IMG/VR virus record: IMGVR_UViG_3300005056_000227
Location: 1-40,211 of that record
Strand: one strand, 5' to 3'
DNA: 40,211 nt
From: a virus
The notes under the pieces are model-generated. The model saw nothing but the letters and a program-made list of their open reading frames with translations, was not told the DNA's origin and did no database searches. The stretch's first letter is position 1; every line of letters begins with the position of its first letter. The position numbers and the translations under genes are program-made. Positions 4,545-40,211 of the stretch are shown here, piece after piece.

Positions 4545-4617
4545 TATGCACCTCAATATGCGTCATTATCTACTACACTCCTTTTACCGTGATCGCGGTG
4601 AGGGAGCCTTGTTTGAC

Positions 4618-11679: not shown

Positions 11680-12458
11680 TTATTTGTTCTGCTTCATCTC
11701 TTCAAGTTTGCTGCGCTGCACCTGCGCGGTTACGCTACCAATAATCTCAATTGCCTGGTTCCACCGGTAGCTCTCGTTTTCCCAGCCACAAGCGTTCGGT
11801 GACTGATTATGCGAGAGCATGTTGTAAGCCTTAAATTCATAATCAAATTCCGGCACCAGCAGCAAAGGGCAAACCGTACCGGCTTCAGTATCGCCATCAC
11901 GCCACATATCCGGTTCATCACAAACGCAATTGGCAGGCTTCACAGGTAAACGTGGACACATCTCACAACTATCACCACACGTCCACGCGCGCGTGGCACG
12001 TCTCAGTTTTTTACTGCGTCCTCACTATAGCGACTCATATTAATGATTTTTGCACCTAGTTCACGGATGACAATAATCGGTGCACTCTTAATAAATTCAT
12101 CTAGTTTTAATGTAAACTTTTCACCTTTCTCATCTAAAATATCACCAACCTCAACCAGTCCAAAACCACACGCCTTAGCATGTTGCTGGTTCACTTTTCG
12201 CATGGTTTCAGCGTCCAAAGGTGATATCCCTCTAATCTGATGTTGCTCATCATTATTCAACTCACGATCTTCCTCCTTAGCTTTATGAATAAGCCCATGA
12301 ATAATCAGAGCATCACCAACGCTCATAGGGCTATCACGATTAACATCATCAAGCTCTTTCCACGTCAGTCCGCGTAAAATAAAAGTGGTGGGGTTTTCAG
12401 ATTCACGATCCTGTTTAATAATGTATTCTTCGGTACTTCCTGGGCGGTGCATTTTCAT
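11680..12458 (-). CDS. Tail assembly chaperone GT fusion made by -1 frameshift
   Basis: The longer product reads the 151-codon frame from 12458, slips back one base at A AAA AAC (12012-12006), and continues from CTG at 12006 into the -1 frame to the stop at 11680. I read the -1 frame through the junction (LRRATRAWTCGDSCEMCPRL), and it is open into the 93-codon downstream frame. The fusion would be about 259 residues. In lambda the GT protein binds the tape measure through its T part and recruits tail-tube subunits. The T part here has several cysteines (WTCGDSCEMC, NCVCDEP). The downstream ATG at 11961 has no convincing ribosome-binding site, which supports expression by frameshift. Confidence 0.8.
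11979..12012 (-). promoter_or_regulatory. Programmed -1 ribosomal frameshift signal
   Basis: On the - strand the heptamer A AAA AAC occupies 12012-12006, in the zero frame as GTA AAA AAC, so it fits X XXY YYZ exactly. Four bases downstream, ACGT (12001-11998), a bulged G, and CCACG (11996-11992) pair with CGTGG (11987-11983) and ACGT (11982-11979) around a CGCG loop. Slippery heptamer, short spacer and hairpin are the three parts of a classic stimulator. Confidence 0.85.
12003..12458 (-). CDS. Tail assembly chaperone G-like protein
   Basis: A 151-residue acidic helical protein is encoded between the tail tube gene and the tape measure gene, the conserved place for the G chaperone. The start MKMHRPGS is preceded by GGAG at about ten bases. 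The frame ends GTA AAA AAC TGA, with the stop directly after the slippery heptamer, so most ribosomes make this short form and a minority make GT. No catalytic motif is expected or seen. Confidence 0.8.
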   Translation of the reverse strand: MKMHRPGSTEEYIIKQDRESENPTTFILRGLTWKELDDVNRDSPMSVGDALIIHGLIHKAKEEDRELNNDEQHQIRGISPLDAETMRKVNQQHAKACGFGLVEVGDILDEKGEKFTLKLDEFIKSAPIIVIRELGAKIINMSRYSEDAVKN

Positions 12459-18187: not shown

Positions 18188-18439
18188 TTACTTGGTGTGT
18201 TCCAGCTTTTCACCAGAAGTGGTTACAACAACAACCTTGTCTTCATATTCGGCAAAATTCAGCACGTCTGCTTCTCTGATAGATTCCTTTTTGGTTTTAG
18301 GAATATCGTCCTTGCCCAGTTTTGACTGACCCTTGTCATCAAGATCAGGAACAACACGATGCACCAGCTTGACGGCTTGTGCTTTTGTCATTGTTGGCTT
18401 AAAACCTTCTTTGTCTTTTTTAGTGTCTTTGGGGTCCAC
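18188..18439 (-). CDS. Small charged protein upstream of capsid gene
   Basis: An 83-residue lysine- and aspartate-rich protein (MDPKDTKKDKEGFKPT...) is the first gene after the capsid-operon promoter region. GTG at 18439 follows CCGGAGACC, a good ribosome-binding site. Charge and position suggest a scaffold or head accessory role, but no family is recognised. It ends in a short beta-like VVVVTTSGEKLEH segment. Confidence 0.7.
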   Translation of the reverse strand: MDPKDTKKDKEGFKPTMTKAQAVKLVHRVVPDLDDKGQSKLGKDDIPKTKKESIREADVLNFAEYEDKVVVVTTSGEKLEHTK

Positions 18440-18515
18440 GGCGGTCTCCGGTTAATTGATTATTTGAATAAATAAAAACATCAGAGCCAGACTTTACCCA
18501 CGCGCAAGTAAAAGC

Positions 18516-18536
18516 TACATTAAAGCGCTTTAATAA
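18516..18536 (-). promoter_or_regulatory. Late palindrome upstream of the capsid operon
   Basis: ATTAAAGCGCTTTAAT (18519-18534) is a perfect 16-bp palindrome. The surrounding 21 bases are identical to those at 29795-29815 upstream of the endolysin gene. It lies about 80 bp before the first start codon and directly after an intrinsic terminator, so a promoter is needed here. It is the best candidate for a Mor- or C-like activator site. Confidence 0.6.
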
Positions 18537-18565
18537 TTAGCAAGGCGGTGTATAAAAAAGATGAC

Positions 18566-18595
18566 GGAAACAAAACAGCGCACGGATGTGCGCTG
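18566..18595 (-). terminator. Intrinsic terminator of the portal-gpF transcript
   Basis: On the - strand CAGCGCAC and GTGCGCTG form a perfect 8-bp stem with a four-base loop. It is followed immediately by TTTTGTTT. It lies about 50 bp after the stop of the 60-residue gene at 18643 and just before the palindrome and the capsid operon. Confidence 0.85.
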
Positions 18596-18642
18596 GCGGT
18601 GAAGTAATAGATTAACGATTCTGGTTTTTTATTGCAATATTA

Positions 18643-18825
18643 TTATTTATTGTCTCTTGCGCTCTTTAAATGCATCTGCAAATAATCCCTGGCAATTCTT
18701 CGTTGGTCTTCAGTCAGTGAGTTTGCATAAACAGGCAGACTTAACTTGGCGCATCGATGCAAGTACACAATGTGCTCGTTTATTTTATGCTGGTCGTCGC
18801 CGTGTAAAGAGTTTTCATGGATCAC
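18643..18825 (-). CDS. Small protein after head morphogenesis gene
   Basis: A 60-residue protein starts by ATGA overlap with the stop of the gpF-like gene, so translation is coupled. It is mostly helical (LPVYANSLTEDQRRIARDYLQMHLKSA). The coupling and its place at the end of the portal transcript support expression. No family is recognised. Confidence 0.6.
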   Translation of the reverse strand: MIHENSLHGDDQHKINEHIVYLHRCAKLSLPVYANSLTEDQRRIARDYLQMHLKSARDNK

Positions 18826-19736
18826 GCAGCGCGCCCCTGAAGTTCAGCATCCAGCGCACGCTTAAACGCATTCTTCTTCAGCTCATCATCAGTAAATGGA
18901 ACACGGCCGGGGTTCTTCACTTCCCAATCATCCATAAAGGGCAAAGACTCACAACCACAATTTACACGCTCACCCACTGGTGCTGCCGGGTCACGAGGAA
19001 ACATCAATGACACACTGCCCGTTTTAGCGTACAACTTGAACGGTTTATCCTGGTCAACAATCTGCCCATCGGCAGCATCGTGATGAATACGCGAGTGAAT
19101 CTTGCCGCTACGCCGCCACTGTTTTTTAAGGCCCGGTAAAATCTCACTAGCCTGTTTCATCCGTGCCTGGGTGGCAACCGAAAAAGCACCGCCTAACTCG
19201 GTACGCAAAACCATAATGGCGCGTGAGCGGCCAGACTTTAAAAAGGCAGATATATTATTAATGGCATCCTGCTGGCTTTTAGCGCCGATAGCCACCAGCC
19301 CAAGCTCACTGTTTACACTATTAGCAATAGTCATACTAATATCTTTCATCCGCCCCGTCATAAAGGTGCGCATCGCAATCAGTTGCCGAGTATCGATGGC
19401 TGGCAATACAGCAGAAATTTGCAAGCCAGCAGCAGCAACAGGTTTATCGATCAGGTCAACCCCTTGCTGCCAGATTTCATTTGATGCTGTTGATACTTTC
19501 TGCGCGCTGAGCGTGCCGATCTCATCCATCGCGGTATTAATAGAATTTTGTAACTGCGGTAAATTCCACGCCTGAAAATCAGTCGGCGTAGCAGCCAGTG
19601 TAGCGCTGATCTGTGTCGAGGCTAGCGCCAGCAAACGCTCAATTTCTGTAAGAGTGTTACGCTGAATGGCTGTTTTTCCTTTAATTATTTTCGCCCTTTC
19701 CTTGTTAAAAACCTTATTGCGTTCGTCGTCATTCAC
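18822..19736 (-). CDS. Mu gpF / SPP1 gp7-like head morphogenesis protein
   Basis: A 304-residue minor head protein has the family's C-terminal pattern near residues 205-270: KKQWRRSGKIHSRIHHDAADGQ, VSLMFPRDPAAPVGERVNCGCE and FPF-like end. The N-terminal two thirds are helical. These proteins sit inside the head near the portal in low numbers. The gene follows the portal by three small genes, as expected from Mu (gp29-gp30). It overlaps its downstream neighbour by four bases. Confidence 0.85.
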   Translation of the reverse strand: MNDDERNKVFNKERAKIIKGKTAIQRNTLTEIERLLALASTQISATLAATPTDFQAWNLPQLQNSINTAMDEIGTLSAQKVSTASNEIWQQGVDLIDKPVAAAGLQISAVLPAIDTRQLIAMRTFMTGRMKDISMTIANSVNSELGLVAIGAKSQQDAINNISAFLKSGRSRAIMVLRTELGGAFSVATQARMKQASEILPGLKKQWRRSGKIHSRIHHDAADGQIVDQDKPFKLYAKTGSVSLMFPRDPAAPVGERVNCGCESLPFMDDWEVKNPGRVPFTDDELKKNAFKRALDAELQGRAA

Positions 19737-20011
19737 AACGGTTGCGCCTGATCAAACTTATCAGCAGGATAAAGCGTCACTAACTTATCGTCGGCAACCA
19801 CTAAAATCAGGGCAGAGTGTAGCTTGCTCTGGCTCGGCACCCGCAGATACCTGGTGCGCGCATTAGCATCATCAATTTTTTTATAAATGTTTCGAGGCGG
19901 GTCGATTAGTTGAGATTGTTCGATAGCGTCCTGCAATTGCTCAAGGTCAAGCAACCAGGGCGCACGTTCTCGAACGCGGGCAATAAAGTGACTGGATATG
20001 GCGTAGATCAT
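19733..20011 (-). CDS. Small head-module protein, unknown function
   Basis: The 92-residue protein starts at ATG 20011 in an ATGA overlap with the membrane protein gene (a start eight codons upstream is also possible). It contains SHFIARVRERAPWLLDLEQLQDAI and ALILVVADDKLVTLYPAD. The alpha/beta pattern and the H-F-x-x-R-x-x-E motif resemble small toxin-like or RelE-like folds only faintly. It overlaps the gpF gene by four bases. Confidence 0.65.
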   Translation of the reverse strand: MIYAISSHFIARVRERAPWLLDLEQLQDAIEQSQLIDPPRNIYKKIDDANARTRYLRVPSQSKLHSALILVVADDKLVTLYPADKFDQAQPL

Positions 20012-20202
20012 GTGACCGCCAGAAAAACCACCCACACAACCAGTGATGCAAAGGTTGCAAGGCCGAACGTATAAATACCCTCAATGCCGCTTAAGAAACT
20101 CTCATCCGCATCAGGCGTTACTCGCCACGCCCAGGCATAAGCAATCAATGTAATTAAAAATGGCAGCAACCACCAGCCTGCAGTTACAGTAAGTGAATAC
20201 AT
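20008..20202 (-). CDS. Small two-span membrane protein
   Basis: A 64-residue protein has two hydrophobic spans, near residues 8-26 (AGWWLLPFLITLIAYAWAW) and 44-63 (YTFGLATFASLVVWVVFLAV), joined by an acidic loop. It lies just after the portal gene with a 2-bp gap. A membrane protein is unusual inside a head cluster. It may be a second holin-like or superinfection-related protein, but nothing in the sequence decides this. Confidence 0.65.
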   Translation of the reverse strand: MYSLTVTAGWWLLPFLITLIAYAWAWRVTPDADESFLSGIEGIYTFGLATFASLVVWVVFLAVT

Positions 20203-20204
20203 AA

Positions 20205-21668
20205 CTAACCATCCTTGCCAGCGGCTGGCTCTTTAAAAGCATCCTCTTCTTTTTCACTGCCTGCTTCCTTCAGCGCATTTACAAGTTCTGTTTTCGCATC
20301 AAATTCAACACCTAGCCGCGAGGTAATTTTCTCGATGATCTGTAGACCACGCTCTTTAGTCATTAATCCCTGAGTAATAGCTGCGGCCACACCCATTACC
20401 ACCTGCGTTAATGCCGTCGCATATTTACTAACATCTTTAGACACCATTTCAGGAAACTGCACTTCGAACTTATAAATATCATCGCGCATATCAGGTTCGC
20501 CGCCCATCGACAGCTCTGATTGCCTAATCGCGTAGGTAATCACCTCACACAACATGTATTTAATAAACTGGCGACGCATGGCCATCACTTTAAAAGTCGG
20601 CTCACCCATCTCGCCAGCCGTTGCACGGTTTACATCACCGCCACCGCCAAACCAGTGTTCAGGAATGGACGCACCGCCCAGGCTATGATTTCTAAATGTC
20701 CTGGCATTTTTTTCAGTATCTTCCGACCCCAGATCAGGAGACTCTGTCCTCCATTCTTCAGAATCGTTGTGTACGCGAACACTGCCAGGGTTTGGCACGC
20801 GAATCTCTTGTGCTCTTTTTTTAATTTCTTCAGGCGTTGCATTTTTCAGCGTGACATCCCAGATGAATGCACGGGCAAACGAACTGCGCTCAAGCTCACC
20901 GAACAAAAATTGCTCATAAGCATCCAGCCAGTCGATCTGTGGCAGCAGATCAGAACGGCCTCGTGTACTAGTCGACAAACTATTTACATTAAAGTAGAAG
21001 CATTCACCGGTATCAAACGTCTCACGAATTTCCACCGTACGTTGTGTAAATAGATCATTGTCATTGCCGTTAACGATCACACGATAACGTCGGGCGCGAC
21101 CCTTGCGATCTTTTTTGGTGATAACGCCAATAGGCTGTTCAGGATTATCCGGATCCATCACCACTGTTTCGATAACAACAGGATCCAGATAACCTAAACG
21201 AACATGGCCATTAAATTCATTTACAAAAGTTGGCCAGCACTGCTCGCCAAATAAACCAAGCTCACGCACCTTTTTAATTAGCTTAATGTCCATGCGATTG
21301 ATCGGATCAAACCAGAAACTCTCAATCACTTCGCTAACCGTTTCATCGTCAGCGGTAACCGTCACACCCTCAGCCAACATAAATGCAATCGGCAACTCGA
21401 CGATGCGGTTTGCAAGCATGTTCGATTCCCACAAATACACGCCCAAATCAACCATCCGCTTTTGCGTCATCGGTGCCAGGTCGCGGTGGCTGTCACCGGT
21501 TAGTTTTCGCCAGTCGGCATCGTCAACGTCGATGGTCTGGCCATACGCTTCACGAAATGGCACTATATTGCTGGGAATGCTTTTTTCGGCCTCCAGCACA
21601 TCGACCAACACCTGATCATTCAGTGCGTTTGCCAGCCGTGTTCGGATATCTTCTTTCACTACCGCCAT
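20205..21668 (-). CDS. Phage portal protein
   Basis: A 487-residue protein lies between the packaging/structural genes and the gpF-like gene. It has portal-type features: LWESNMLANRIVELPIAFMLAEG near residues 78-100, a RYRVIVNGNDNDLF-type clip/stem region, HSLGGASIPEHWFGGGGDVNRATA near 330-355, and a C-terminal helical crown. A dodecamer of this protein would form the DNA entry pore and bind the terminase. A 187-bp leader with a palindrome-like element precedes it. Confidence 0.85.
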   Translation of the reverse strand: MAVVKEDIRTRLANALNDQVLVDVLEAEKSIPSNIVPFREAYGQTIDVDDADWRKLTGDSHRDLAPMTQKRMVDLGVYLWESNMLANRIVELPIAFMLAEGVTVTADDETVSEVIESFWFDPINRMDIKLIKKVRELGLFGEQCWPTFVNEFNGHVRLGYLDPVVIETVVMDPDNPEQPIGVITKKDRKGRARRYRVIVNGNDNDLFTQRTVEIRETFDTGECFYFNVNSLSTSTRGRSDLLPQIDWLDAYEQFLFGELERSSFARAFIWDVTLKNATPEEIKKRAQEIRVPNPGSVRVHNDSEEWRTESPDLGSEDTEKNARTFRNHSLGGASIPEHWFGGGGDVNRATAGEMGEPTFKVMAMRRQFIKYMLCEVITYAIRQSELSMGGEPDMRDDIYKFEVQFPEMVSKDVSKYATALTQVVMGVAAAITQGLMTKERGLQIIEKITSRLGVEFDAKTELVNALKEAGSEKEEDAFKEPAAGKDG

Positions 21669-21855
21669 AATTTCCTCAAATTCGGGACTGCGTCACAAGC
21701 CAGACCCATTGTGTTCCGCTTTATAAAACGTTTATAAACTAAGATCATGATGAACCGTTGCCATTACCCCTTTATTATTTTAAAAAACGCTCACAGCACT
21801 TTTTTTAAAAGTCAGCGATCTTGATTTAAGTTGCTGCATCATCCTGCTTTGGCTT
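21669..21855 (-). other. Leader before the portal operon
   Basis: This 187-bp AT-rich gap lies between the 123-residue gene and the portal gene, both on the - strand. It contains a TTATAAA/TTTATAA inverted repeat (21721-21737) and a weak A-rich/T-rich hairpin, AAAAAACGCTCACAGCACTT, at about 21783-21802, which could terminate the upstream transcript. No coding frame is evident. Confidence 0.45.
21721..21737 (-). promoter_or_regulatory. Inverted repeat upstream of portal gene, possible late-promoter element
   Basis: TTATAAA-ACG-TTTATAA is a 7-bp inverted repeat with a 3-nt centre, 53 bp before the portal start codon. Its form (AT arms around a CG centre) is similar to the late palindromes at 18.5 and 29.8 kb, but the sequence is not identical. 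Confidence 0.35.
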
Positions 21856-22227
21856 TTAAAATCTTCGTAAAAGAATCTTTACAGCTAAAGCCATGCCCAT
21901 ATTAAGACCTGTGCTAATAGCCGCTTTGTGTGTCATTAACGTAAGAGTTACCGCTTTAACACCCGTGTTTATCCTCGCTGCATAAGTAATTAATGTTAAT
22001 ACCTTGGCAGTAACATTAATATTCACCGTTGCGTTTTTATCTACCCAAAACGTTGGCTCGAAAAACTGAGACTTGAAAAATGTATTACCAAAAAAGTTAT
22101 TAACAAATTCTATACCCTGAAATACTGTTACCGGGTAAGTAACCAACGTCAACGCACGATTAGTTACGTTAATCTGTGTGGCAGTTACTTGCCATGTATT
22201 AACGAGTGACCATGTATTGACTAACAT
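21856..22227 (-). CDS. Small repetitive protein of the surface module
   Basis: A 123-residue protein has three similar segments, NRALTLVTYPV, AKVLTLITYAARINTG and AVTLTLMTHKAAISTG, so it is built of an imperfect repeat of about 20 residues. It is rich in T, N, V and F. It ends a block of six structural-looking genes. The function is unknown; beta-structured surface protein is the best guess. Confidence 0.6.
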   Translation of the reverse strand: MLVNTWSLVNTWQVTATQINVTNRALTLVTYPVTVFQGIEFVNNFFGNTFFKSQFFEPTFWVDKNATVNINVTAKVLTLITYAARINTGVKAVTLTLMTHKAAISTGLNMGMALAVKILLRRF

Positions 22228-22228
22228 T

Positions 22229-23416
22229 TTATATCACCGATGCCGTCGTGTAACATACAGCCGTTCTATTAGTACCTGCGGGTGCAAGCGCCCAATCCCC
22301 TATAATAATCAATAATGGATCGTTATTACTAACGACAACGTCATTCAAGTCAATAACAAGATTACCAGATGCGTCCGTAGACTCACCTATTCCTTGTTTT
22401 AAAATAGTCATTGTCGAAAGGTCATGACCAGCAAAAACACAATAATCCAGTCCTGCAAGATTTTCGCCTCCTGCTATCGCTGGAAATGTTGCAGTCTGAA
22501 TTGCAGCCAGTGTTGTACTTGTATACGTATCGGATATACCACCCACCGTAACAATAGTATCGACGGCTGTTGCATTACTTGCTGATGATGTATGTCTTGC
22601 TGTAATTACGTCATTAGCCACACAATTACCGGGAGCTGTGGAGTAAGCGCCGCCGTTGATTGAACATGTGCCGTTAACGGAAGTAACTGGCGCTGGTGCA
22701 TTTATACCTGTAATTGTAACGCCAGCAGAAGTAATGACCGAAGACAAAGCTACATCTGTTTGATCGACAAAACTAAAAGGATCGGGTGCTGTATCCAAAG
22801 CAGATTCAACTAAGGAGAAATGCGTACTGTAAGTAAGGTCTGTTGCAGCGGAGCCTGTTATATCTACGTTTCCAACTAAGGTTTCCCCCGCTGAAATTTT
22901 ATATGCCATTGCAGATACTTGATTCGTTCCTGCTCCGAGAACACCAATATAGCCTTGAGTCGCAGATATATAAGCACCTGTGCTTGCTCTGTCCATGCCG
23001 CCGTGAACGAAACTAATTGCGTTAGCCGCTAATACAACGCCGTTAACATCGCAACGTAAAAAAGCATTTGAAGCACTATAACCTCTGGTAAGTGCTGCAT
23101 CAGCAACTAAGTTATTGTCTGCCCGTAAAATATAAAGAATTATGTGTGTGCGATTAATCGCGCTATTAAATGTCCATGTTGGTGATGGGCGCAAAGCTGT
23201 TAATTTTGTATAGTGCGTAACTACTTTCGCTGTTTCAGATACAACATCATAATCATCTGTAAAATCCCACGCTTCGCCGGGGGTGGCAACTGCTACACCG
23301 TCTCTATGTACCACGGCAACCATATAGTCGCCTACTTGGTGGGTAATGCCGTGAGTAAAAGTTGCCGAGCCTGTTTCAGCTTCAAAAACTGCACTACCTA
23401 TTACTGTAATCGCCAT
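22229..23416 (-). CDS. Surface-type structural protein with Ig-like repeat domain
   Basis: A 395-residue protein has an N-terminal beta domain (AITVIGSAVFEAETGSATF). Near residues 235-300 it has an Ig-like domain of the type found in bacterial surface proteins (GVTITGINAPAPVTSVNGTC, then CSINGGAYSTAPGNC). The C-terminal part is also beta-rich and ends WALAPAGTNRTAVCYTTASV. Such domains bind surfaces or decorate heads. It overlaps the previous gene by one base (TAATG). A head or tail decoration protein is inferred. Confidence 0.65.
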   Translation of the reverse strand: MAITVIGSAVFEAETGSATFTHGITHQVGDYMVAVVHRDGVAVATPGEAWDFTDDYDVVSETAKVVTHYTKLTALRPSPTWTFNSAINRTHIILYILRADNNLVADAALTRGYSASNAFLRCDVNGVVLAANAISFVHGGMDRASTGAYISATQGYIGVLGAGTNQVSAMAYKISAGETLVGNVDITGSAATDLTYSTHFSLVESALDTAPDPFSFVDQTDVALSSVITSAGVTITGINAPAPVTSVNGTCSINGGAYSTAPGNCVANDVITARHTSSASNATAVDTIVTVGGISDTYTSTTLAAIQTATFPAIAGGENLAGLDYCVFAGHDLSTMTILKQGIGESTDASGNLVIDLNDVVVSNNDPLLIIIGDWALAPAGTNRTAVCYTTASVI

Positions 23417-24531
23417 TACGTTGCTCCTACACCTGTGTTATCTGTATTACCCGCGACATGATTATGTCCAATTCGTTTTGTGCTTATCACTAAATCATTT
23501 ATCCAAATACCATTATTGCCATCAATTGTTCCCGGTGTATCCCAGTTTCCGTTAACAAATTGCAAATTGTCAAACAATACTAAAAAGTTATAACCTGATC
23601 CGCGTGATGCCGTTGGAATTTCTCCTGGTAATAGATCAGCTAAAACGGGTGTTGGTGCTTTAGGCCTCATATCGACAATAGGTATTTGCTCAACGCCATC
23701 GAACCAGATTTGATAAACACCGTCATTTGCAGTATCACTGGTAGCTAACTTACATCTCCATTCTATTGTGTGCCACGTCTGAGTTGTGTTATTGACAAGG
23801 ATACGTGTTGTTTTATCAAAATCCCACGCACCAGAACCCATATTATTAAGTGCGCCAGGAGTGCCAACATAGCTGGCTTTAAAACCGTCGTAATAATCAA
23901 TAGAGTATCTAGCTCCGTTAGCACTGCCACCACTTAATGGAAGCCCTGTTGCATCGAAGTTTGCAGCGAACGTTCCACCCGCATACACACCCCAAGTTGC
24001 CGTACCACCAAAATTCATTACTGCAAAACCAGAATCTGCTCTATTTTCTGTGACACCTGCGCTAACAGGTCCGTTGTTTTGCCATAATCTAGCCCATTTC
24101 CAATAAGCAAAATCGTCAATCGCAGTATCACCCATTAAGATGTTATTAGGCAGCCTCACGCGATAACGAAGAAAAATCTCGTCATACCCAGTATTTTGAT
24201 CGTCTGTTAAATGTTTAAATAACTGTGTTACAGGTTGAGATAAATCGCCCCACTCAAAACGCATCGCAACTGACCCTGCAACACCCTCACCGGCAACACC
24301 ATAAATACGACCATTACCCTCAATCAATGTACCACTAAATCCCTCTGGCTTTATTGAGGCTATATTTGTCCACGGAAATGACGTTGGCCCGGTATGTGCA
24401 AAAGCGGCATCGTTAACAAAATTGGTTTCAAAAATAATACCAGCGAGCGGAGGCAGCACAGGGGCTATAAAATTACTACTAGAACCTGTGTTTGCTCCAA
24501 CACTATCACCTGTACTATCACCCATACTCAT
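23416..24531 (-). CDS. Lectin/LamG-like surface structural protein
   Basis: A 371-residue protein begins MSMGDSTGDSVGANTGSSS at ATG 24531, chosen because AAGG stands eight bases upstream and the previous gene ends at 24534. After a disordered serine/glycine start and a proline hinge (APVLPPLAG), the remaining 340 residues resemble a concanavalin-like jelly roll as in polysaccharide-binding domains: WARLWQNNGPV, VNNTTQTWHTIEWRCKLA and GVYQIWFDGVEQI. Binding of host polysaccharide is a reasonable inference. Confidence 0.65.
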   Translation of the reverse strand: MSMGDSTGDSVGANTGSSSNFIAPVLPPLAGIIFETNFVNDAAFAHTGPTSFPWTNIASIKPEGFSGTLIEGNGRIYGVAGEGVAGSVAMRFEWGDLSQPVTQLFKHLTDDQNTGYDEIFLRYRVRLPNNILMGDTAIDDFAYWKWARLWQNNGPVSAGVTENRADSGFAVMNFGGTATWGVYAGGTFAANFDATGLPLSGGSANGARYSIDYYDGFKASYVGTPGALNNMGSGAWDFDKTTRILVNNTTQTWHTIEWRCKLATSDTANDGVYQIWFDGVEQIPIVDMRPKAPTPVLADLLPGEIPTASRGSGYNFLVLFDNLQFVNGNWDTPGTIDGNNGIWINDLVISTKRIGHNHVAGNTDNTGVGAT

Positions 24532-24533
24532 AA

Positions 24534-24848
24534 TTAAAACCTTGCGTTTGCATGATTGCCTGTAGCGACTATCATGCCGTTGTCTATAAATGCTGTACCA
24601 ACAGAATCCTGTATAACAATAGCTATTACTTGTCTCTCTGTACGCGATGCAAGACTCGGAGTCCATTTATAACAGCCTTGACTTACGGCAACACATTCAG
24701 CGCTTATGTCAATATCAGCGTCACCATCAACAATTAAAAGCACATCACCGGTAACAAAAACATGTCCTGCAATTCTATTTCCCGCAGAATCTACGAGAAA
24801 GAAATAAAGTGGCTCGACAGAACCATACGTATGTAAATCATGACTCAT
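24534..24848 (-). CDS. Small beta-rich structural protein
   Basis: A 104-residue protein starts SHDLHTYGSVEPLYFFLVDSAG and has the pattern of short phage structural proteins found next to fibre genes (EPLYF, then VFVTGDVLLI, then CYKWTPSL). It is directly followed by the lectin-like gene. Role in the surface module is inferred from context. Confidence 0.6.
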   Translation of the reverse strand: MSHDLHTYGSVEPLYFFLVDSAGNRIAGHVFVTGDVLLIVDGDADIDISAECVAVSQGCYKWTPSLASRTERQVIAIVIQDSVGTAFIDNGMIVATGNHANARF

Positions 24849-24855
24849 AAATCAC

Positions 24856-25302
24856 CTACCCGTTATTTGCTATAGTATAAAGACCTAAGCTGTTCCAAAT
24901 AACCTGCAAAGGGTCTACAGACATATCAACTGTACCTAGTTCAACGAATCCAAGACACTCCTTGTTTACGCCTGCATTGTTATAAATAATGCCCCACATT
25001 GCATCAACATCGTTACCGGCATCAGCTAACCATTCTGGGTTGACTGCACTATCGAATGTAATAACACCCGCAGCTTCAGTAATTAAAGTAGATAAAGCTC
25101 CAAGACTGATACCTCCACTAATATAGTTCCCAAGAACGCCAACTTGCGTAAAGTCTGCAAGCACAGGCACAGGTGTAGCCGCTACTGCTGGCACTGTTGT
25201 GTTATCACAAATAGCAAGAAACATAACATCTGCCCCTGCCCACGAACCATTTTGTATTTTCTCTAAACCTTTGTTGAAAATAGTTAAATCACCGACAGCC
25301 AT
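24856..25302 (-). CDS. Phage structural protein of the GYxxGG type
   Basis: A 148-residue protein starts MAVGDLTIFNKGLEKIQNG at ATG 25302 in a TAATG overlap with the previous stop; an upstream start at 25350 would overlap more. The order of an N-terminal helix, a short-lived FLAICDNT strand, LGNYISGGISLGAL, a VITFDSA strand and AMWGIIYNN then LGFVELGT matches a widespread family of small phage structural proteins encoded beside fibre or decoration genes. The precise place in the virion is unknown. Confidence 0.7.
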   Translation of the reverse strand: MAVGDLTIFNKGLEKIQNGSWAGADVMFLAICDNTTVPAVAATPVPVLADFTQVGVLGNYISGGISLGALSTLITEAAGVITFDSAVNPEWLADAGNDVDAMWGIIYNNAGVNKECLGFVELGTVDMSVDPLQVIWNSLGLYTIANNG

Positions 25303-25628
25303 TATATGCCTCCATATATTTCTAAATAAGTTCGATTTAGGGGTATCCATGAATGTACTCCCGCGTCTGAAATATGTATTGCGTAAAGAGGGCTTGAACC
25401 GTCTGTTAGAGTAGATTGACTTCTACCCAGTTGGTCTAACCCAAAATTTGCAGGGTCAACTGCACCCGTACCGAATTCATCATTTGATGCACCTGCTGTT
25501 GCTGATGTTGCTGCGCCTGCACTTTCCCAACTAGCAACAATTAATGATGCGCGCTCAACAACAACGCGGCGAGCAAATATACCCTTTATAAGGTTCACCC
25601 AGCTCCGATCATCTTTAAACTTACTCAT
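25302..25628 (-). CDS. Small structural-module protein, unknown
   Basis: A 108-residue protein follows the terminase gene by 23 bp. It has a basic N-terminal helix (WVNLIKGIFARRVVVERASLI), a serine/alanine-rich linker and a C-terminal beta part (LYAIHISDAGVHSWIPLNRT). It is coupled by TAATG to the next gene. No family is recognised. Confidence 0.6.
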   Translation of the reverse strand: MSKFKDDRSWVNLIKGIFARRVVVERASLIVASWESAGAATSATAGASNDEFGTGAVDPANFGLDQLGRSQSTLTDGSSPLYAIHISDAGVHSWIPLNRTYLEIYGGI

Positions 25629-25651
25629 AACCCACCCCCATAAAATTCAAT

Positions 25652-27247
25652 TTAGTTAATACGACTACCGCGCCCAAACATTTTCACACTACGCCGACCA
25701 CGTGTCGCTTCCGACATATAAACACCATCAGTATTTTCGATTGATTCGCCTGCAGGCGGTTGGCCGTCTTCTTCTGTTGCCATCCACGCCAGCAAACCCG
25801 CCACGGCAGTATCACCGTGCCTGGCTAAACCATCGCTACCTTTGTCACGGCCATCATCCATTCTCGGGCGACCTTTATCTAAAACAACCCGGCGGTGGTC
25901 GGCCACAATATCTTCTGACTTCGGAATAATAATCATCTTAGATTCAAAGGCAGATTTGTACTTTGGAAACGCGACCGAATACCATCCTGCTGTTGCCATT
26001 ACGCACTCGATCCGGATAGGCCCATACTTCTGCATGGCGGCTTCTGCTATCTGCTGGCCATTGCCGCGCGCATCAAATTTTCCATGATGAAACAACGGTA
26101 ATGCGTCGATAATTAAAAACACCATTAACTGCTGCACATCAAAAGGCACGTTACGCATTTCAAAAACAAAGCCGGTTTTCCATTTGTCTTTTTCAATTTC
26201 CTGCAATACCCATAAAGCAGAGAGATCGCCGCTGCGACCAAAGTCATCGCCAAACACCGAGCGCTTATCGGGCGGCAAGTTATCTAGCACCGGCTTCAAA
26301 TTATCGTTAAACCATTTCTCAGCTTTAACCAGGCGATTATCATCAAGCACGTCTTCATCTTTCAGCGCGTAATGCAGCACTGGAATAGAATCATCCATGC
26401 AACGCTCAATGAGTACTCGCGGCAAATAAACACCGCTGCCTTTACTGGCTATGCAAAACAACTCTTCGTTAGCACCGTCGCCATACTGTTTGACGATGTG
26501 CTCACGAAATTCTTTCTCGCCTTTTTTAGACCAGTCTTTTCCCTGGACCAGGCAAATGCGTTTATAAAAACCCTGCTCTAGCGCATTGTCAAATGTAACC
26601 TTGTGATGCGAGTAATCTAGCTTGCCCGCATCAATCTCGCGCAGCATCTGGTTAAAGGGATTGTCGTCACCGTTATGCGTACTAACCACGTCGACGCGAC
26701 CGCCCCAAATTAAGAATGCCAGTGCGGCTTTTAATAATTCGTTGAGATCATTATGAAAAGCAGCCTCATCAATTCGCGCATGACCTTGACGACCACGGAA
26801 GTTATGCGGGTTAGAACTTAGCGCCTCAATCTTGTGTCCGGATGACAACTTAATGCTGTACTTAACGATATCGCGGCGCTCGTTATCGATAACGGCATGC
26901 TCCATCGAAACATCAATGGCACTTACTACTATTGCAAAGGCTTTACAGAAAAACGCGCAATCACCTATAAACTCAGCGGCCATCGGCAGGTTATAGCCAA
27001 CGTAAAACTGATCCATGCCCTCCTGCTCAGCTGCTTCCAGCACAGCCTCACATGCCATGCCACCCCAACTCCAGCCAATGCGTCGTGACTTCTCGCCGAA
27101 ACGCACTGGCGATTTGTCCTGATGCCAGGCAATCTGATATGGCAATAAAATATTGGGTACTTCAGCTGCGCTTAAGTTTTTGGTTTCACGCTCTGACTGA
27201 ATCTCGTCGACCAGTTCAAGATAGTCGCCGCGCTGCTTGTCATCCAT
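25652..27247 (-). CDS. Large terminase subunit, Mu gp28-like
   Basis: A 531-residue packaging ATPase-nuclease. A modified Walker A region GEKSRRIGWS lies at 51-60, Walker B-like ARIDEAAF at 157-164, and the nuclease acidic motif VFGDDFGRSGD at 331-341 with a further DGRDKGSDGLARHGD near 480. The GEKSRRIGWS form is typical of Mu gp28-type terminases, which package by cutting in flanking host DNA. It overlaps the gp27-like gene by eight bases. Confidence 0.9.
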   Translation of the reverse strand: MDDKQRGDYLELVDEIQSERETKNLSAAEVPNILLPYQIAWHQDKSPVRFGEKSRRIGWSWGGMACEAVLEAAEQEGMDQFYVGYNLPMAAEFIGDCAFFCKAFAIVVSAIDVSMEHAVIDNERRDIVKYSIKLSSGHKIEALSSNPHNFRGRQGHARIDEAAFHNDLNELLKAALAFLIWGGRVDVVSTHNGDDNPFNQMLREIDAGKLDYSHHKVTFDNALEQGFYKRICLVQGKDWSKKGEKEFREHIVKQYGDGANEELFCIASKGSGVYLPRVLIERCMDDSIPVLHYALKDEDVLDDNRLVKAEKWFNDNLKPVLDNLPPDKRSVFGDDFGRSGDLSALWVLQEIEKDKWKTGFVFEMRNVPFDVQQLMVFLIIDALPLFHHGKFDARGNGQQIAEAAMQKYGPIRIECVMATAGWYSVAFPKYKSAFESKMIIIPKSEDIVADHRRVVLDKGRPRMDDGRDKGSDGLARHGDTAVAGLLAWMATEEDGQPPAGESIENTDGVYMSEATRGRRSVKMFGRGSRIN

Positions 27248-27779
27248 TGAGATTCACCCCAAGTATCTGCGCACGGATCTGGTTGGCCACATCTTTCGTC
27301 AGGCCACCTTTTTTACCCAGGCTGTCTACTTTATCGGCAACCTCTTTTAAATTGTCATGAACCTCTGCAGCCCACTTCTTCTGATTAACCGATGCCCGTG
27401 CTAGCCGCGCAACAGTCAGCCCGATCTTATGAATATTCTTGTCGCCGTCCTCCATGTCCATTAACACATCGAAGGTCTTGGTTTGCACCATACGCAGTAA
27501 TGCCTCACTCATAGCGCCAGCATCATCTTCCGAGCCATCGCTAATAGCTTTCGCCTGTTCGGTGGCGACTCGCAATTTTTCCAGCTTTTCTTCAAACTCC
27601 TGACCATGACGATGAATCGCAGAACGCGACACCTTAATTTCAAGATCAAGCGCCTGCAATTTATCCGTCAGCCACGCTTCAAGGCCATCGTAATTCGCAA
27701 AGCCCTGCGACACGAGCTTAGAATTCAACTCGCGGCGTAAAGCTTCAGGTAATTTCAAAATAGATGATCTGCGTGGCAT
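27240..27779 (-). CDS. Mu gp27-like packaging protein (DUF3486)
   Basis: A 179-residue protein has the DUF3486 features: PRRSSILKLPEALRRELNSKL at the start, an HTH-like GFANYDGLEAWL followed by VSRSAIHRHGQEFEEKL, and a C-terminal helical part. In Mu-like phages this gene stands just before the large terminase and is thought to act as the small subunit or a DNA-recognition factor. Order and eight-base overlap agree. Confidence 0.85.
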   Translation of the reverse strand: MPRRSSILKLPEALRRELNSKLVSQGFANYDGLEAWLTDKLQALDLEIKVSRSAIHRHGQEFEEKLEKLRVATEQAKAISDGSEDDAGAMSEALLRMVQTKTFDVLMDMEDGDKNIHKIGLTVARLARASVNQKKWAAEVHDNLKEVADKVDSLGKKGGLTKDVANQIRAQILGVNLNG

Positions 27780-27787
27780 AACAACGA

Positions 27788-28099
27788 TTAACTAAAGTCT
27801 TCAGGTTTCGAGATACCGTTATCAGTCGCATCTGGGCTTTCCAGAAAATCGACACCGTCCGGTAATAAGCGACCCAGCCAGTGACTTAGTTCATGCGTCA
27901 CTTCTATAAACTTTTTATCTTCCAGATATTGCATCGCTTTGCGAACGTCCTGCAGTGATGCGTCTAAATCTACATCGACTAAAACCTGTTTGATCAGCCC
28001 TTCGCCCAGCGGGTTTGGCCTGCTTGCGTCCAATACTTTTAACAAACGGTATCGAATCATTTTCTGGCGCGCATGTTTTACTCGTTCATGTTCACTCAT
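27788..28099 (-). CDS. Mu gp26-like packaging-module protein
   Basis: A 103-residue protein with a winged-helix-like pattern: IRYRLLKVLDASRPNPLGEGLI, ASLQDVRKAMQYLEDKKFIEV and a C-terminal tail. It matches the small protein family found between DUF2730 and gp27 genes in Mu-like prophages. It starts by ATGA overlap with its upstream neighbour and precedes the gp27-like gene by eight bases. A DNA-binding role in packaging is inferred. Confidence 0.75.
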   Translation of the reverse strand: MSEHERVKHARQKMIRYRLLKVLDASRPNPLGEGLIKQVLVDVDLDASLQDVRKAMQYLEDKKFIEVTHELSHWLGRLLPDGVDFLESPDATDNGISKPEDFS

Positions 28100-28443
28100 G
28101 TTTTTATTCTCTCCAATAATTGATTAAGAGTCCCTTTGACCGTTATCATGTTCTCGGTGATTTTGTCTTGCTTTGCATCAATAGAATTACTAAACCGAAT
28201 CCAGTCATCCCTTGCCACATACTTTTCTGGCAGGGTTGCCTGAAATTTTAAAAAGTCTTTTTCAATGCGTTGCCACTCCGTGTTGTTTTTTTCTATCCCT
28301 GCGCTCAATAGTCTAAATTTCTCATCAGCGTGTCTCTGCTGCGCTGCAAGCATGACTCTTACTGCCAACAAAACAACTGCGCTGAACGCTGCCAGCATGG
28401 CTACCAACACACCAACCATTTGCCAATTAATTACATCCCCCAT
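28096..28443 (-). CDS. Membrane-anchored coiled-coil protein (DUF2730-like)
   Basis: A 115-residue protein has one N-terminal membrane span (VGVLVAMLAAFSAVVLLAV) followed by a long charged helical region. ATG at 28443 in a TGATG overlap with the zinc-finger gene is preferred over GTG at 28452. Mu-like phages have a DUF2730 protein at this place. The topology (N-terminal anchor, periplasmic coiled coil) is that of an inner-membrane spanin, and no other Rz-like gene is seen, so a role in lysis is possible. Confidence 0.75.
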   Translation of the reverse strand: MGDVINWQMVGVLVAMLAAFSAVVLLAVRVMLAAQQRHADEKFRLLSAGIEKNNTEWQRIEKDFLKFQATLPEKYVARDDWIRFSNSIDAKQDKITENMITVKGTLNQLLERIKT

Positions 28444-28688
28444 CAACAACACCCATTTATTTGTTTTTCTTTCAACTCAAAATCTTCCTGACAGTACACG
28501 CAACGCACAGCGTCCGGGTAAGCCTTTAATCGTTTTTTGGGTACAACGTCTTCACAATCAAGGCAGCATCGGTTGCCCTCGATAATCAGTGGTGATTCAG
28601 TTTGCCTGGCACTTTCTTGCTGATTTCGTAACGCCAGCTCACTGTTACGCATCTCGGTTTCTGTTGCCCGATCTAAAACATCCGTCAT
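28443..28688 (-). CDS. TraR/DksA-type zinc finger protein
   Basis: An 81-residue protein has an N-terminal helix and a four-cysteine zinc finger, C42-x2-C45 and C63-x2-C66, as in TraR and DksA. Such proteins enter the secondary channel of RNA polymerase and alter promoter choice. Mu-like phages commonly carry one between lysis and packaging genes, as here. An extra C41 and a CC at the C-terminus are present. Confidence 0.85.
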   Translation of the reverse strand: MTDVLDRATETEMRNSELALRNQQESARQTESPLIIEGNRCCLDCEDVVPKKRLKAYPDAVRCVYCQEDFELKEKQINGCC

Positions 28689-28690
28689 AC

Positions 28691-29263
28691 TTATCCTGAA
28701 ACTTTCCCTTTAATTCGATGTGCAAGGGCCGACACGATACCAAGCGCCGGGGCATTGCCATTTACTGCCTGCTTATCTTTACTGCGCGCACTAATTTGAA
28801 TACCAAGCACGCCAAGACCAACAGACCACATCATGCCGAGCGCCGAAAATGAGTTAATGATTAAACTAGCTTCTTTTGGTGTTTTAATAATTGCGTAAAT
28901 AATAGCGAACATCATCGCACCCCAGCTGAAAGCCATTATGTAACCAAATGTAGGCCGCCAGTATGATTTAAATTTATCGTCGCTCTGAACTTCAACACGC
29001 ATGGTGGCGTTGATCGTTTCTAGCTGTTTGGATTCTTCTTGATATTGCGCGATGATAACTGGCTGCATAGCCTGGGTTAACTTTAGTTGTAGCTCAGGAT
29101 CATTTTCTATCCTGTCCAGCGCAACTTGCTGGTCACTTTCACCCGTAATAACACTGGCAACATCAACAACCTTCTGCGCCATGTCGGCTTCATCATCACC
29201 ACCAAACCAGCGCAGCACATCAGGCACAAATTTAGCCAGAGCTATGGCAACGGTTATAGACAT
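28691..29263 (-). CDS. 3TM-type holin-like protein
   Basis: A 190-residue protein starts with a hydrophobic amphipathic helix (ITVAIALAKFVPDVLRWFGG) and has two clear membrane spans near residues 105-130 (YWRPTFGYIMAFSWGAMMFA) and 135-155 (INSFSALGMMWSVGLGVLG). The WRPTFGY turn is typical of the 3TM holin family. It overlaps the endolysin gene by TGATG, so lysis genes are translated together. It would form membrane pores at the end of infection. Confidence 0.85.
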   Translation of the reverse strand: MSITVAIALAKFVPDVLRWFGGDDEADMAQKVVDVASVITGESDQQVALDRIENDPELQLKLTQAMQPVIIAQYQEESKQLETINATMRVEVQSDDKFKSYWRPTFGYIMAFSWGAMMFAIIYAIIKTPKEASLIINSFSALGMMWSVGLGVLGIQISARSKDKQAVNGNAPALGIVSALAHRIKGKVSG

Positions 29264-29763
29264 CAGCTGCCGCTCGTTAATGATTCGATAGTGTGTAAAC
29301 CATGCTCGTATTTCGTAAAGACTTTACCAACACGAGGGCGAAATTTATAAGCGGTTAACACTTCACCGCGAGGCTGCTCATCTTCTTCAGCAATAGAGCC
29401 ATGACACCAGCGACCAAACTCATGAATAAGCTGATCGTACGGCAAGCCTAAATCAATAGCGGCTTCACACAGTTCAAGTGGCGTTACTTCAACAGGAACA
29501 ACATCACCCGCAAGGCATTCGATGTGCTGTGAGCCATCACCACTGCCGACCAGTCGGTTAACCTCTAACGGTCGATAACCAGATACAATATTTAGCGGGC
29601 CGCAAACATCACGCAAGGGCTGTGCGAATGTTTCGCAATAACGCTGTAATCGTTTAAATTGAAGCGACCCTTCTTCGACAACAATTTCAACCCCATGACG
29701 GATCGCGGTTTCCGAAAAAGTAAACTCGTCGAGGTAAAAGTTTTTTGTTAAGTTGATACGCAT
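29263..29763 (-). CDS. Endolysin, M15-family peptidase
   Basis: A 166-residue zinc D,D- or L,D-endopeptidase-type endolysin. The metal site is SQHIECLAGDV near residues 77-87 (H79 and D86), with a catalytic-type E in LIHEFGRW near 115 and a second H in WCHGSIAE near 120. The usual glycine of SxHxxGxAxD is replaced by cysteine. The start ATG at 29763 is the only in-frame one, because a TAA lies four codons upstream. It sits in an RNA hairpin with only a weak ribosome-binding sequence, so translation may be controlled. It is the first gene of the late operon. Confidence 0.87.
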   Translation of the reverse strand: MRINLTKNFYLDEFTFSETAIRHGVEIVVEEGSLQFKRLQRYCETFAQPLRDVCGPLNIVSGYRPLEVNRLVGSGDGSQHIECLAGDVVPVEVTPLELCEAAIDLGLPYDQLIHEFGRWCHGSIAEEDEQPRGEVLTAYKFRPRVGKVFTKYEHGLHTIESLTSGS

Positions 29764-29788
29764 GCGGCCATCTTAGAGATGACCGCAT
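29762..29788 (-). promoter_or_regulatory. RNA hairpin covering the endolysin start codon
   Basis: On the - strand ATGCGGTCATC (29788-29778), loop TCTAA, and GATGGCCGCAT (29772-29762) form an 11-bp stem with one wobble pair. Two of the three bases of the start codon are in the stem. No Shine-Dalgarno sequence lies outside it. Confidence 0.6.
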
Positions 29789-29794
29789 GGTTGA

Positions 29795-29820
29795 TACATT
29801 AAAGCGCTTTAATAAAGCGC
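29795..29820 (-). promoter_or_regulatory. Late palindrome upstream of the lysis operon
   Basis: ATTAAAGCGCTTTAAT (29798-29813) is the same 16-bp palindrome as at 18519; 21 bases match exactly. A second AAAGCGC arm follows, so GCGCTTT-AAT-AAAGCGC also pairs (29804-29820). It is about 32 bp before the endolysin start, where Mu has Plys. It could also stop the lipoprotein transcript, because three T follow the second hairpin on the - strand. Confidence 0.6.
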
Positions 29821-29844: not shown

Positions 29845-30189
29845 TTATTTGCATTGACCACTATAAGTCACAATGCCATCTATTTCATTAACCTTTTCGT
29901 AACTATAACCATTCATACAAATTCTTTGCCTCGCTAGCTCAGTGGCAATCAAATTTGCATGCCACTTTTCAATAGTCATACTTGGCGGTATATCTTTTGG
30001 CAGCTTAGTCCAGCCAGAAGCACCAAAAGATTTAGCACCATCAGGCGCCACTTTGGGTGAAATTATTATTGTAGAGTACAAAGGCTCCATATATTGAGCC
30101 TGATCCTGTGTCCGCACCTGCAAAGCACTGTAATCAGGATAAGCAACACAGCCAGATAACAGCGCACATAATATAACAATCTTTTTCAT
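29845..30189 (-). CDS. Small lipoprotein, possible superinfection-exclusion factor
   Basis: A 114-residue protein has a short signal peptide with a lipobox (LLSGC, C14) and valine at +2, which predicts an outer-membrane lipoprotein. The mature part ends with two cysteines (RICMNGYSYEK and SGQCK) that could pair. It follows the repressor and the HTH gene on the same strand with small gaps, so it could be made in the lysogen. Prophage lipoproteins often block superinfecting phages. It lacks the proline-rich form of an outer-membrane spanin. Confidence 0.75.
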   Translation of the reverse strand: MKKIVILCALLSGCVAYPDYSALQVRTQDQAQYMEPLYSTIIISPKVAPDGAKSFGASGWTKLPKDIPPSMTIEKWHANLIATELARQRICMNGYSYEKVNEIDGIVTYSGQCK

Positions 30190-30204
30190 AATATAATTCC
30201 TGAT

Positions 30205-30573
30205 TTAGTCTGACCGTAGAACTGTGCGCCAATAACAAACACATGTCTCACTGCAAGGCAGCGGCATTAAAGCTAGCGCCTCATCAATGGAAAAAACCCT
30301 TCCTGCATATTTAACACATTGCGATCCAATCCGTGGGTCCACACCTTTTGTTTTAATATTTCGCTCGACAGTCTGAGTACTATAGCCAACTTCTTTCGCT
30401 ATTGCTTTTACATCAAACCCCTTGTTATGCAATTCAACAATTTTCAGAGCAGGCGGCCACGGCTTCCCTTTAGATATTTCTACACCAACAATAACACTAA
30501 GTTTTTCAGAATCTTTATAACTAACTAATTCTTCAGCCCATTTCTGCTTATAACCCCGGTCTATATCTTTCAT
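30205..30573 (-). CDS. HTH protein downstream of the repressor
   Basis: A 122-residue protein has a helix-turn-helix near residues 47-70 (HNKGFDVKAIAKEVGYSTQT) of the resolvase/LuxR-like type and a cysteine-rich end (PCSETCVCYWRT). The gene is 41 bp after the repressor gene on the same strand, so it is probably part of the lysogenic transcript. The cysteine cluster could bind metal or be redox-sensitive; this is inference. No precise family is recognised. Confidence 0.7.
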   Translation of the reverse strand: MKDIDRGYKQKWAEELVSYKDSEKLSVIVGVEISKGKPWPPALKIVELHNKGFDVKAIAKEVGYSTQTVERNIKTKGVDPRIGSQCVKYAGRVFSIDEALALMPLPCSETCVCYWRTVLRSD

Positions 30574-30614
30574 ATTATAACTTCCATTGTCAGGATAAAA
30601 TTTACATTAAAGTT

Positions 30615-31073
30615 TCACGTCTTACGATCGTAAATATCAGGCAATTGCTCCACCATATCAAAAAGCAACTCTATTTGATCATCAGTTAGTCGCACCAAGC
30701 ACGCAAAGTCTCTTATCGGTCCAATCTTCAACGGATCCGTTGGCTGTATCTTCCGCTTAGTCAAAATAGCGAATACTCGCGCCGTTACTTCACGAATCAC
30801 TTTTTCATCTATAACCGAATATTTCTGCCTTTCTTCGCCAACACCGGAATCAAGCGAAGCCTGTTTGCGCCCAGTAATAATATAATCCAAAAATACGCCT
30901 TCACGCAAAGCGACATCGACGCATTCAGCATAGGGCACAGACCCTCTTGTTCGCCATGCGCTAACAGTGGTCCTTCCCACGTCGAGCTTCTTAGCAAGCT
31001 CAGAATCATTCTTACAATCAAGTATTTCGCTTAGCCGATTAAGCACTGCGCCAGCATCAACAATATTATTCAC
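30615..31073 (-). CDS. CI-type phage repressor, no LexA-like peptidase domain
   Basis: A 152-residue protein starts at GTG 31073, chosen because CI-type repressors begin about 12 residues before this HTH and GGGG lies about ten bases upstream; ATG at 31106 is an alternative with no ribosome-binding site. The HTH is DSELAKKLDVGRTTVSAWRT followed by GSVPYAECVDVALREG and LDYIITG, as in the phage CI N-terminal family. The rest has no Ser-Lys peptidase motifs, so RecA-driven self-cleavage is unlikely. It would repress the early promoter beside it. Confidence 0.85.
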   Translation of the reverse strand: MNNIVDAGAVLNRLSEILDCKNDSELAKKLDVGRTTVSAWRTRGSVPYAECVDVALREGVFLDYIITGRKQASLDSGVGEERQKYSVIDEKVIREVTARVFAILTKRKIQPTDPLKIGPIRDFACLVRLTDDQIELLFDMVEQLPDIYDRKT

Positions 31074-31082
31074 AAAATGTAA
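31069..31082. promoter_or_regulatory. Operator-like site O1
   Basis: TTCACAAAATGTAA overlaps the repressor start codon (31073-31071). It matches the reverse complement of O2 at 13 of 14 positions. Likely a repressor site for self-control. Confidence 0.55.
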
Positions 31083-31091
31083 CCCCAATGG

Positions 31092-31120
31092 TTGACATGT
31101 CCACATATTGCGTCTATATT
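31092..31120 (+). promoter_or_regulatory. Early promoter (perfect sigma-70 spacing)
   Basis: TTGACA (31092-31097), a 17-bp spacer and TATATT (31115-31120) form a near-perfect vegetative promoter pointing to the early genes. Its -10 touches operator O2, so repressor bound there would block transcription. Confidence 0.8.
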
Positions 31121-39386: not shown

Positions 39387-39828
39387 TAGAAATGCAGAAT
39401 TAGCAAAAATACATATCGGTAAAAAACAGCTTGATATGGATCAGCAGACTTATGAAAATATGCTCTGGACACAAGGCCGCGTACATTCATCTGCAGACCT
39501 GGATGAACATGGGCGACACAAGGTAATAAAGCACCTGGAAAATTGTGGCGCAAAATTCATCAAGCGTAAAAGCAGTATATCAGTCAGTGGTAACGCAAGC
39601 CATAATCAGATATCCATGATCAACGCACTCTGGGCTAACCTTGCTGCCGGTGGTGAAATCATAGACCCAAGTAATGCTGGCCTTCGAAAGTGGCTACAAA
39701 ATGCGACACGTCGTCAGCACGAGCGTGGTTTGGGCTGGAAATCTCCTAAATTTCTTCCTGGTCGCGTAGCCACTAAAGTAATCGAACAACTTAAGTGCTG
39801 GTGTGATCGTACTGGAGTTAAATACTAA
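39379..39828 (+). CDS. GemA-like regulatory protein (DUF1018 / Mu gp16-like)
   Basis: A 149-residue protein starts at ATG 39379. The N-terminal DRNAELAKIHIGKKQLDMDQ QTYENMLW and the middle ISMINALWANLAAGG with RKWLQNATRR are typical of the GemA/DUF1018 family of Mu-like phages, a modulator of host and phage gene expression in Mu. It is directly before the Mor gene, as in Mu, with a one-base TAATG overlap. AAGG precedes the start. Confidence 0.87.
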   Translation: MSDRNAELAKIHIGKKQLDMDQQTYENMLWTQGRVHSSADLDEHGRHKVIKHLENCGAKFIKRKSSISVSGNASHNQISMINALWANLAAGGEIIDPSNAGLRKWLQNATRRQHERGLGWKSPKFLPGRVATKVIEQLKCWCDRTGVKY

Positions 39829-40211
39829 TGTCATACACGAGCACACCAGAGCTGCTAGATGATTTCACAGAAAAATGTACTGATATCCTGCAAGAAGAAG
39901 ATGTTGGACTTGATCCTGAGAAAGCAAAAATGGCTGCTCAAAAGATAGCTAGATATATTAAAAACGACTGGGGCGGCCAGCAGATATACTTCCCAAAATG
40001 TGCTGAAGACCAGCTGTCTGAGCGCGACAAGGAACTCTGGAACAAATTTGATGGTACGAATCAGGCAGAACTAGCCCATGATTTTGGCGTGTCATTGGCC
40101 TGGGTATATAAGATAGTAAAATATATGCGGGCCAGCGAAATAGCAGACAAACAGACCGACGCATTCCCAGATGATGAGTTACAAAAAAATCCCACCCGAA
40201 GATGCGCCTGA
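39828..40211 (+). CDS. Mor-type transcription activator
   Basis: A 127-residue protein has the Mor/C family layout: N-terminal dimerisation part (LDDFTEKCTDILQEEDVGLD), GGQQIYFPK near residues 49-57, then an HTH NQAELAHDFGVSLAWVYKIV near 83-102. Mor activates middle transcription in Mu; C does so for late genes. No second such gene is in the window, so this one may act directly on late promoters, possibly at the shared palindromes. The stop is the last three bases of the window. Confidence 0.9.
   Translation: MSYTSTPELLDDFTEKCTDILQEEDVGLDPEKAKMAAQKIARYIKNDWGGQQIYFPKCAEDQLSERDKELWNKFDGTNQAELAHDFGVSLAWVYKIVKYMRASEIADKQTDAFPDDELQKNPTRRCA

Follow-up and report, generated by a model that had tools for sequence, protein, structure and literature searches.

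What binds a palindrome that a Mu-like prophage carries in two identical copies, one upstream of its endolysin operon and the other upstream of its capsid operon? The window analysed here is the whole 40,211-nucleotide stretch of IMG/VR record IMGVR_UViG_3300005056_000227, which corresponds to the minus strand of G000:C10, positions 92323-132533, and in which the late genes lie on the minus strand and the early genes on the plus strand. The late activator C is missing from some Mu-like phages (3927AP2, phiMhaMu2 and SuMu), and identifying its replacement has been said to need experiments (PMC4553209). Comparison of this locus with Mu and with related phages leads us to consider it probable (about 0.88) that the two palindromes are sites for a dimer of the single Mor protein of the prophage, which would switch on the late operons without C.

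Two identical palindromes at late promoter positions

The palindrome ATTAAAGCGCTTTAAT, a dyad of 5+6+5 bases (ATTAA-AGCGCT-TTAAT), occurs perfectly at both loci (Table 1), within a shared 21-mer that starts at 18516 and 29795. Apart from these two copies the window has no perfect 16-bp palindrome and no further match to the 16-mer with up to three mismatches, and a repeated perfect palindrome of this length appeared in none of 400 Markov-simulated windows. The preliminary description had placed the identical palindromes only upstream of the endolysin and capsid operons, which holds for the window; the 3.4-Mb genome adds one more exact copy (L003, 1501-1516), which overlaps the 3' end and the stop codon of a gene that we take, from its protein sequence, to be valS. 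We regard this copy, in a non-promoter position, as a chance occurrence. It is the only host copy, set against the many phage-unrelated copies that would have spoken for a host function, and just four sites with two mismatches exist genome-wide. The exact 21-mer was not found in IMG/VR as scanned, and the two copies in the related phage L013 diverge immediately next to the 16-mer.

Table 1. Features of the two late promoters, of their putative activator and of Mor-type boxes in other phages (window positions unless a locus is named)
Feature	Position	Strand	Remarks
Putative Mor box, lysis promoter, ATTAAAGCGCTTTAAT	29798..29813	-	Exact match; same place in L013
Lysis -10 hexamer TAAGAT (inferred)	29770..29775	-	22 nt past box; identical in L013
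13-bp inverted repeat CATGCGGTCATCT-CTA-AGATGGCCGCATG	29761..29789	-	Surrounds lysis -10, includes start codon; stem kept in L013
Endolysin gene, first in lysis/packaging operon	29263..29763	-	PHROG 894; predicted leaderless AUG at 29763
Putative Mor box, head promoter, ATTAAAGCGCTTTAAT	18519..18534	-	Exact match; also in L013 at this place, and in near-identical form in L011
Head -10 hexamer TAAAGT (inferred)	18491..18496	-	22 nt past box; TAAGGT in L013, TATGGT in L011
Intrinsic terminator just upstream of head promoter	18576..18595	-	Called by scanner; conserved in L013
83-aa gene opening capsid operon	18188..18439	-	GTG start, GGAG Shine-Dalgarno (leadered); homologs at same place in L013 and L011
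Fused head protease/capsid gene, 769 aa	15827..18136	-	PHROG head protease matches
Mor-family activator, last gene of early operon	39828..40211	+	Pfam Mor, 103 bits
Four Mor-type boxes	L206 9609, 16819, 22250, 28202		22 nt from nAnnnT hexamer
Four Mor-type boxes	L203 32247, 5040, 10957, 17222		22 nt from nAnnnT hexamer
Four Mor-type boxes	L205 37669, 5111, 11303, 17429		22 nt from nAnnnT hexamer

Both boxes are followed at the same distance by a putative -10 hexamer, which would place the dyad centre at approximately -42 to -44 relative to the inferred transcript start; in Mor/C-activated promoters of the Pm type the centre is near -43.5. The hexamers are non-consensus, and were first picked by eye and then tested on other loci. 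Both a -35 element and an extended -10 (TGn) are missing at the two promoters, the best match to TTGACA at 16-18 nt being 3/6, and a promoter scanner calls no promoter at either hexamer, nor a sigma70-type -35/-10 pair at the lysis site. The terminator that had been noted directly ahead of the capsid site, on the same strand, is borne out by the stem listed in Table 1. A weak scan of the window for tail or methyltransferase boxes gave none that was convincing, and none ahead of the methyltransferase gene. This DNA methyltransferase gene (PHROG 56; 3789-4556, minus strand) lies beyond the tail genes, in a location reminiscent of mom in Mu.

A single Mor protein and a site like that of Mu

The Mor-type protein ascribed to this phage in the preliminary description is confirmed by a Pfam match, and its best PDB match is Mu Mor (1rr7), followed by C. 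It is the only Mor/C-family (PF08765) protein encoded in the genome, in which no C paralog was found, and no phage operon lies between mor and host parE; mor is the last phage gene ahead of the host parE/parC region. In the two prophages L020 and L018 the common sequence ends some 160 bp past mor, at ...GTTTCA, which is likely to be a prophage right end, next to parE/parC in this genome. Other marks of a Mu-like phage are a TerL related to that of Mu, GemA and a transposase-B type AAA protein. The 595-aa transposase candidate has no Pfam match, and its position is that of the annotated transposase in PhiKM, KP12, Komp and Fc02. The two-step cascade of Mu, from Mor to C, does not describe this phage, in which there is a single Mor/C protein and no phage operon after mor. 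Because the genome encodes one protein of the family and no C, Mor probably acts directly on the late promoters, without a relay through C.

The site recognized by Mor in Mu offers a direct comparison. In two published accounts, the Mor dimer site in Pm is a 16-bp dyad spanning -51 to -36 that replaces the -35 element and consists of 5-bp repeats around a G/C-rich hexanucleotide (PMC4287176, PMC4390567). In the Mu genome this site reads AGTAAAGCCGGTTAAT and is followed by 22 nt and then by TATCCT, the -10 having been placed here at -13 to -8 by means of published primer coordinates. The boxes of the window share with it 12 of 16 bases, the 16-bp length and the 22-nt gap, and a match of 12/16 is expected with a frequency of 3e-4 for random palindromes and of 2.4e-3 when the letters of the half-site are shuffled. 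The palindromes had previously been read as the target of a late activator with a sequence unlike that of Mu; the first part of this reading is supported here, and the second is wrong, given the resemblance to the Pm site. Pm, like the two promoters of the window, lacks a -35, and the activators of the two phages are homologous, each encoded directly downstream of gemA where the early operon ends. Unlike the Pm site, however, which controls the middle operon from which C is produced, the box of this prophage is a perfect palindrome, occurs twice and precedes the lysis and capsid operons. In map position and role these two promoters are instead the equivalents of Plys and PI of Mu, which use C in a phage whose late promoters have no such box: a scan of the Plys/head region of Mu returned the Pm site only and nothing at the C-dependent late promoters. 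In Mu, Mor activates none of the late promoters, and the direct action proposed here is argued by comparison.

Palindromes are also typical of repressors, and the prophage has a CI-type repressor gene at 30615-31106, so that the two sites might be read as CI operators that silence the late promoters in the lysogen. Nevertheless, the intergenic region between the repressor and the early genes at 31.1 kb, the expected place of action of such a repressor, has no copy nearby with up to four mismatches. The box, moreover, occupies the place of an activator site, ahead of the -10 and not over it, and it matches the Mor site of Mu. We thus consider CI operators highly improbable, and sites for Mor the preferred reading.

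Conservation of the box in related phages

A search with Mor as the sole query gave no viral relatives, and TerL queries were used instead. About 280 relatives were examined, comprising TerL-matched contigs and annotated phages; the members of each set are partly related to one another. A motif search in related prophages had been proposed as a check on the original reading, and in L013 (TerL 84%, endolysin 61%) both boxes, both 22-nt gaps, the -10 hexamers and the positions are kept, alongside one Mor protein. L011 carries a near-identical box ahead of its homolog of the 83-aa gene. A scanner lists a stem at 29804-29820, and the palindrome on the lysis side might accordingly belong to an intrinsic terminator of the repressor-side genes. 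The stem is followed by no U-run, however, and its GC extension is not kept in L013, where the box alone is kept, making this the least probable of the readings weighed here.

The spacing seen in the window recurs well beyond these close relatives. When the TerL relatives were scanned with a three-site model, training sites excluded, TA...T stood exactly 22 nt after a box on the late strand in 12 cases; other spacings gave 0-2 cases, and the minus-strand and reversed controls 0-4. A second set, from which the sites seen earlier had been removed, gave 10 at 22 nt versus 0-3, with controls of 0-3. Near-identical pairs of boxes, about 7-13 kb apart, were identified in 9 of 110 loci, with scores of 12.9-48 versus a control maximum of 9.3, and a motif-free search of the minus strand of the window returns exactly the box pair. 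The paired boxes are alike within one phage and unlike between phages, as would be expected if the activator of each phage binds both of its own boxes. A search for Mor/C proteins in 18 viral records and nine genomes found one protein in every viral record with paired boxes, the relatives with the strongest pairs having one each; among the nine genomes, only that of Photorhabdus (G077) encodes two, on different contigs. The recognition helices of the Mor proteins were also aligned with the boxes. L114 repeats a dyad of divergent sequence, CATAACACGTGTTGAA, at 5873 and 17977 with the 22-nt geometry, and the Mor of that phage is also divergent.

The preliminary description had put forward a host regulator as an alternative, and the sequence AAAGCGCTTT does resemble LacI-family operators; such a regulator would couple the late genes to host metabolism. 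Against this, the site is absent from all 57 related genomes, its sole other exact host copy lies inside valS, and the box, with its 22-nt spacing and its position, is conserved across unrelated hosts, in phages of Escherichia, Klebsiella, Pasteurella and Pseudomonas as well as in many other contigs. These findings render a LacI-type host regulator very unlikely.

Among annotated isolates, AFS-2018a, PhiKM, KP12 and Komp_PAO1_1 each have four boxes, ahead of the lysis, protease, tail and baseplate clusters. These phages, of the Bcepmuvirus type or other Mu-like phages with a single Mor, resemble the prophage in having one Mor-family match in the searches carried out and boxes with 22-nt spacing before late clusters, and differ from it in that it has, like L013, two boxes instead of four. 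SuMu, Fc02, Tom33 and Mae-JY22 were scanned and do not have this type of box, and for Mae-JY22 neither the motif scan nor the motif-free search returned one. The distant Mor-only phages Fc02 and SuMu seem to use other repeated motifs. In Fc02 (L208), TTTTCGCyCCTTCCAAAA or a near version occurs in three late-gene gaps (~11697-11730, 20100-20125 and 25610-25630), and is possibly the site of its own late activator. In SuMu (L209), dyads of the type GTGGAA..CTTCC near 10045, 18470 and 30465, before the amidase, protease and baseplate genes, are possibly another late box. Fc02 has the same layout, and its lysis/packaging and structural clusters are turned on after an early operon ending in mor (PMC9936078); this timing agrees with Mor-driven late genes, but the motif of Fc02 differs.

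A predicted hairpin at a putatively leaderless lysis start

At the lysis promoter the -10 hexamer is followed by 6 nt and then by ATG, and the promoter thus looks leaderless. The inverted repeat at this start is predicted to fold as RNA with -20.6 kcal/mol (z -7.0) and has the AUG inside the stem; among 139 gene starts tested, none is as structured as that of the endolysin gene. The left arm of the 13-bp stem sits upstream of the predicted transcript start. Across the boxes, distances from the -10 to the start codon are bimodal, being either 5-8 nt without a Shine-Dalgarno or, with one exception, at least 18 nt. About one third of the boxes are leaderless, so that the pattern is not universal, and most of the leaderless promoters have an inverted repeat around the -10, with its right arm abutting or including the AUG. 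Mean folding energies were -11.2 kcal/mol for leaderless and -2.8 kcal/mol for leadered starts (p = 4e-5; z-scores, p = 4e-4) in a first set in which the leaderless class had been noticed before testing. The second set, a fairer test that nonetheless includes L211 and L214, which are near-duplicates, and TTG starts that are doubtful at three loci (L246, L264 and L269), gave p = 0.005, and 0.004 for z-scores. The lysis genes differ between these phages, so endolysin homology gave no larger set of hairpins.

The inverted repeat could also be a DNA operator for a second regulator, an explanation that concerns the hairpin only and draws on its overlap with the -10, where dyad operators are common. 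Yet such repeats, unrelated in sequence, are present in many phages, in most cases next to a leaderless AUG and rarely at leadered promoters. Several imperfect positions of the stems are moreover recurring G-U wobbles, and between L121 and L211 a T-to-C change turns a wobble into a standard pair. Because of these wobbles and this change we favor an RNA structure, and deem a DNA operator unlikely, if less so than the alternatives to Mor at the box itself.

An RNA hairpin with this role would have a known counterpart in gene e of T4, where the lysozyme start is concealed in the long RNA made early and translatable RNA comes from late promoters within the structure (PMC3014915). The two cases have a lysis gene in common, and would share a hairpin that hides its AUG in a longer RNA, with a late promoter of its own in the 5' part of that hairpin. 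They differ in that the T4 promoter depends on a late sigma factor and its start is leadered, with a Shine-Dalgarno, whereas here the promoter would be a Mor-type sigma70 promoter with a predicted leaderless start. The upstream genes on the same strand (29845-31106), which include the repressor, are a plausible source of read-through RNA.

Proposed mechanism and implications

In the mechanism that we propose, Mor, made last in the early operon, would occupy the 16-bp box, the centre of which lies roughly 43 bp ahead of the transcript start, stand in for the missing -35 contact and bring sigma70 polymerase to the -10 hexamer, 22 bp further downstream. In this way a single step would turn on the lysis/packaging and capsid/tail operons, without the separate C that Mu has. 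The lysis transcript would probably start at the A of the endolysin AUG, and read-through RNA from the repressor-side genes would fold this AUG into the 13-bp hairpin and remain silent, as in T4 gene e. What the comparison itself shows is the sequence, spacing, positions and conservation of the boxes, the single mor gene and the predicted hairpin; binding by Mor, the starts of the transcripts, translation without a leader and silencing of read-through RNA are deduced from these, and we hold the leaderless-hairpin part of the explanation at slightly better than even odds.

It seems about an even proposition that this scheme extends to C-less Mu-like phages in general. A single Mor would then drive all late operons, and several promoters, mostly those of lysis and baseplate genes, would start at an AUG inside a hairpin, so that no RNA other than the leaderless transcript made under Mor from the gene's own promoter would be translated. 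Such an arrangement would amount to a lock on lysis against read-through, evolved with many unrelated sequences.

Our literature searches found no earlier description of these boxes. They suggest a testable answer to the question of what replaces C in one large group of phages, namely Mor itself, and allow late promoters to be mapped from sequence alone in many prophages that are still uncharacterised. The start-codon hairpin, in turn, provides a testable rule for how a lysis gene may stay silent in the prophage despite being co-directional with the repressor-side genes.
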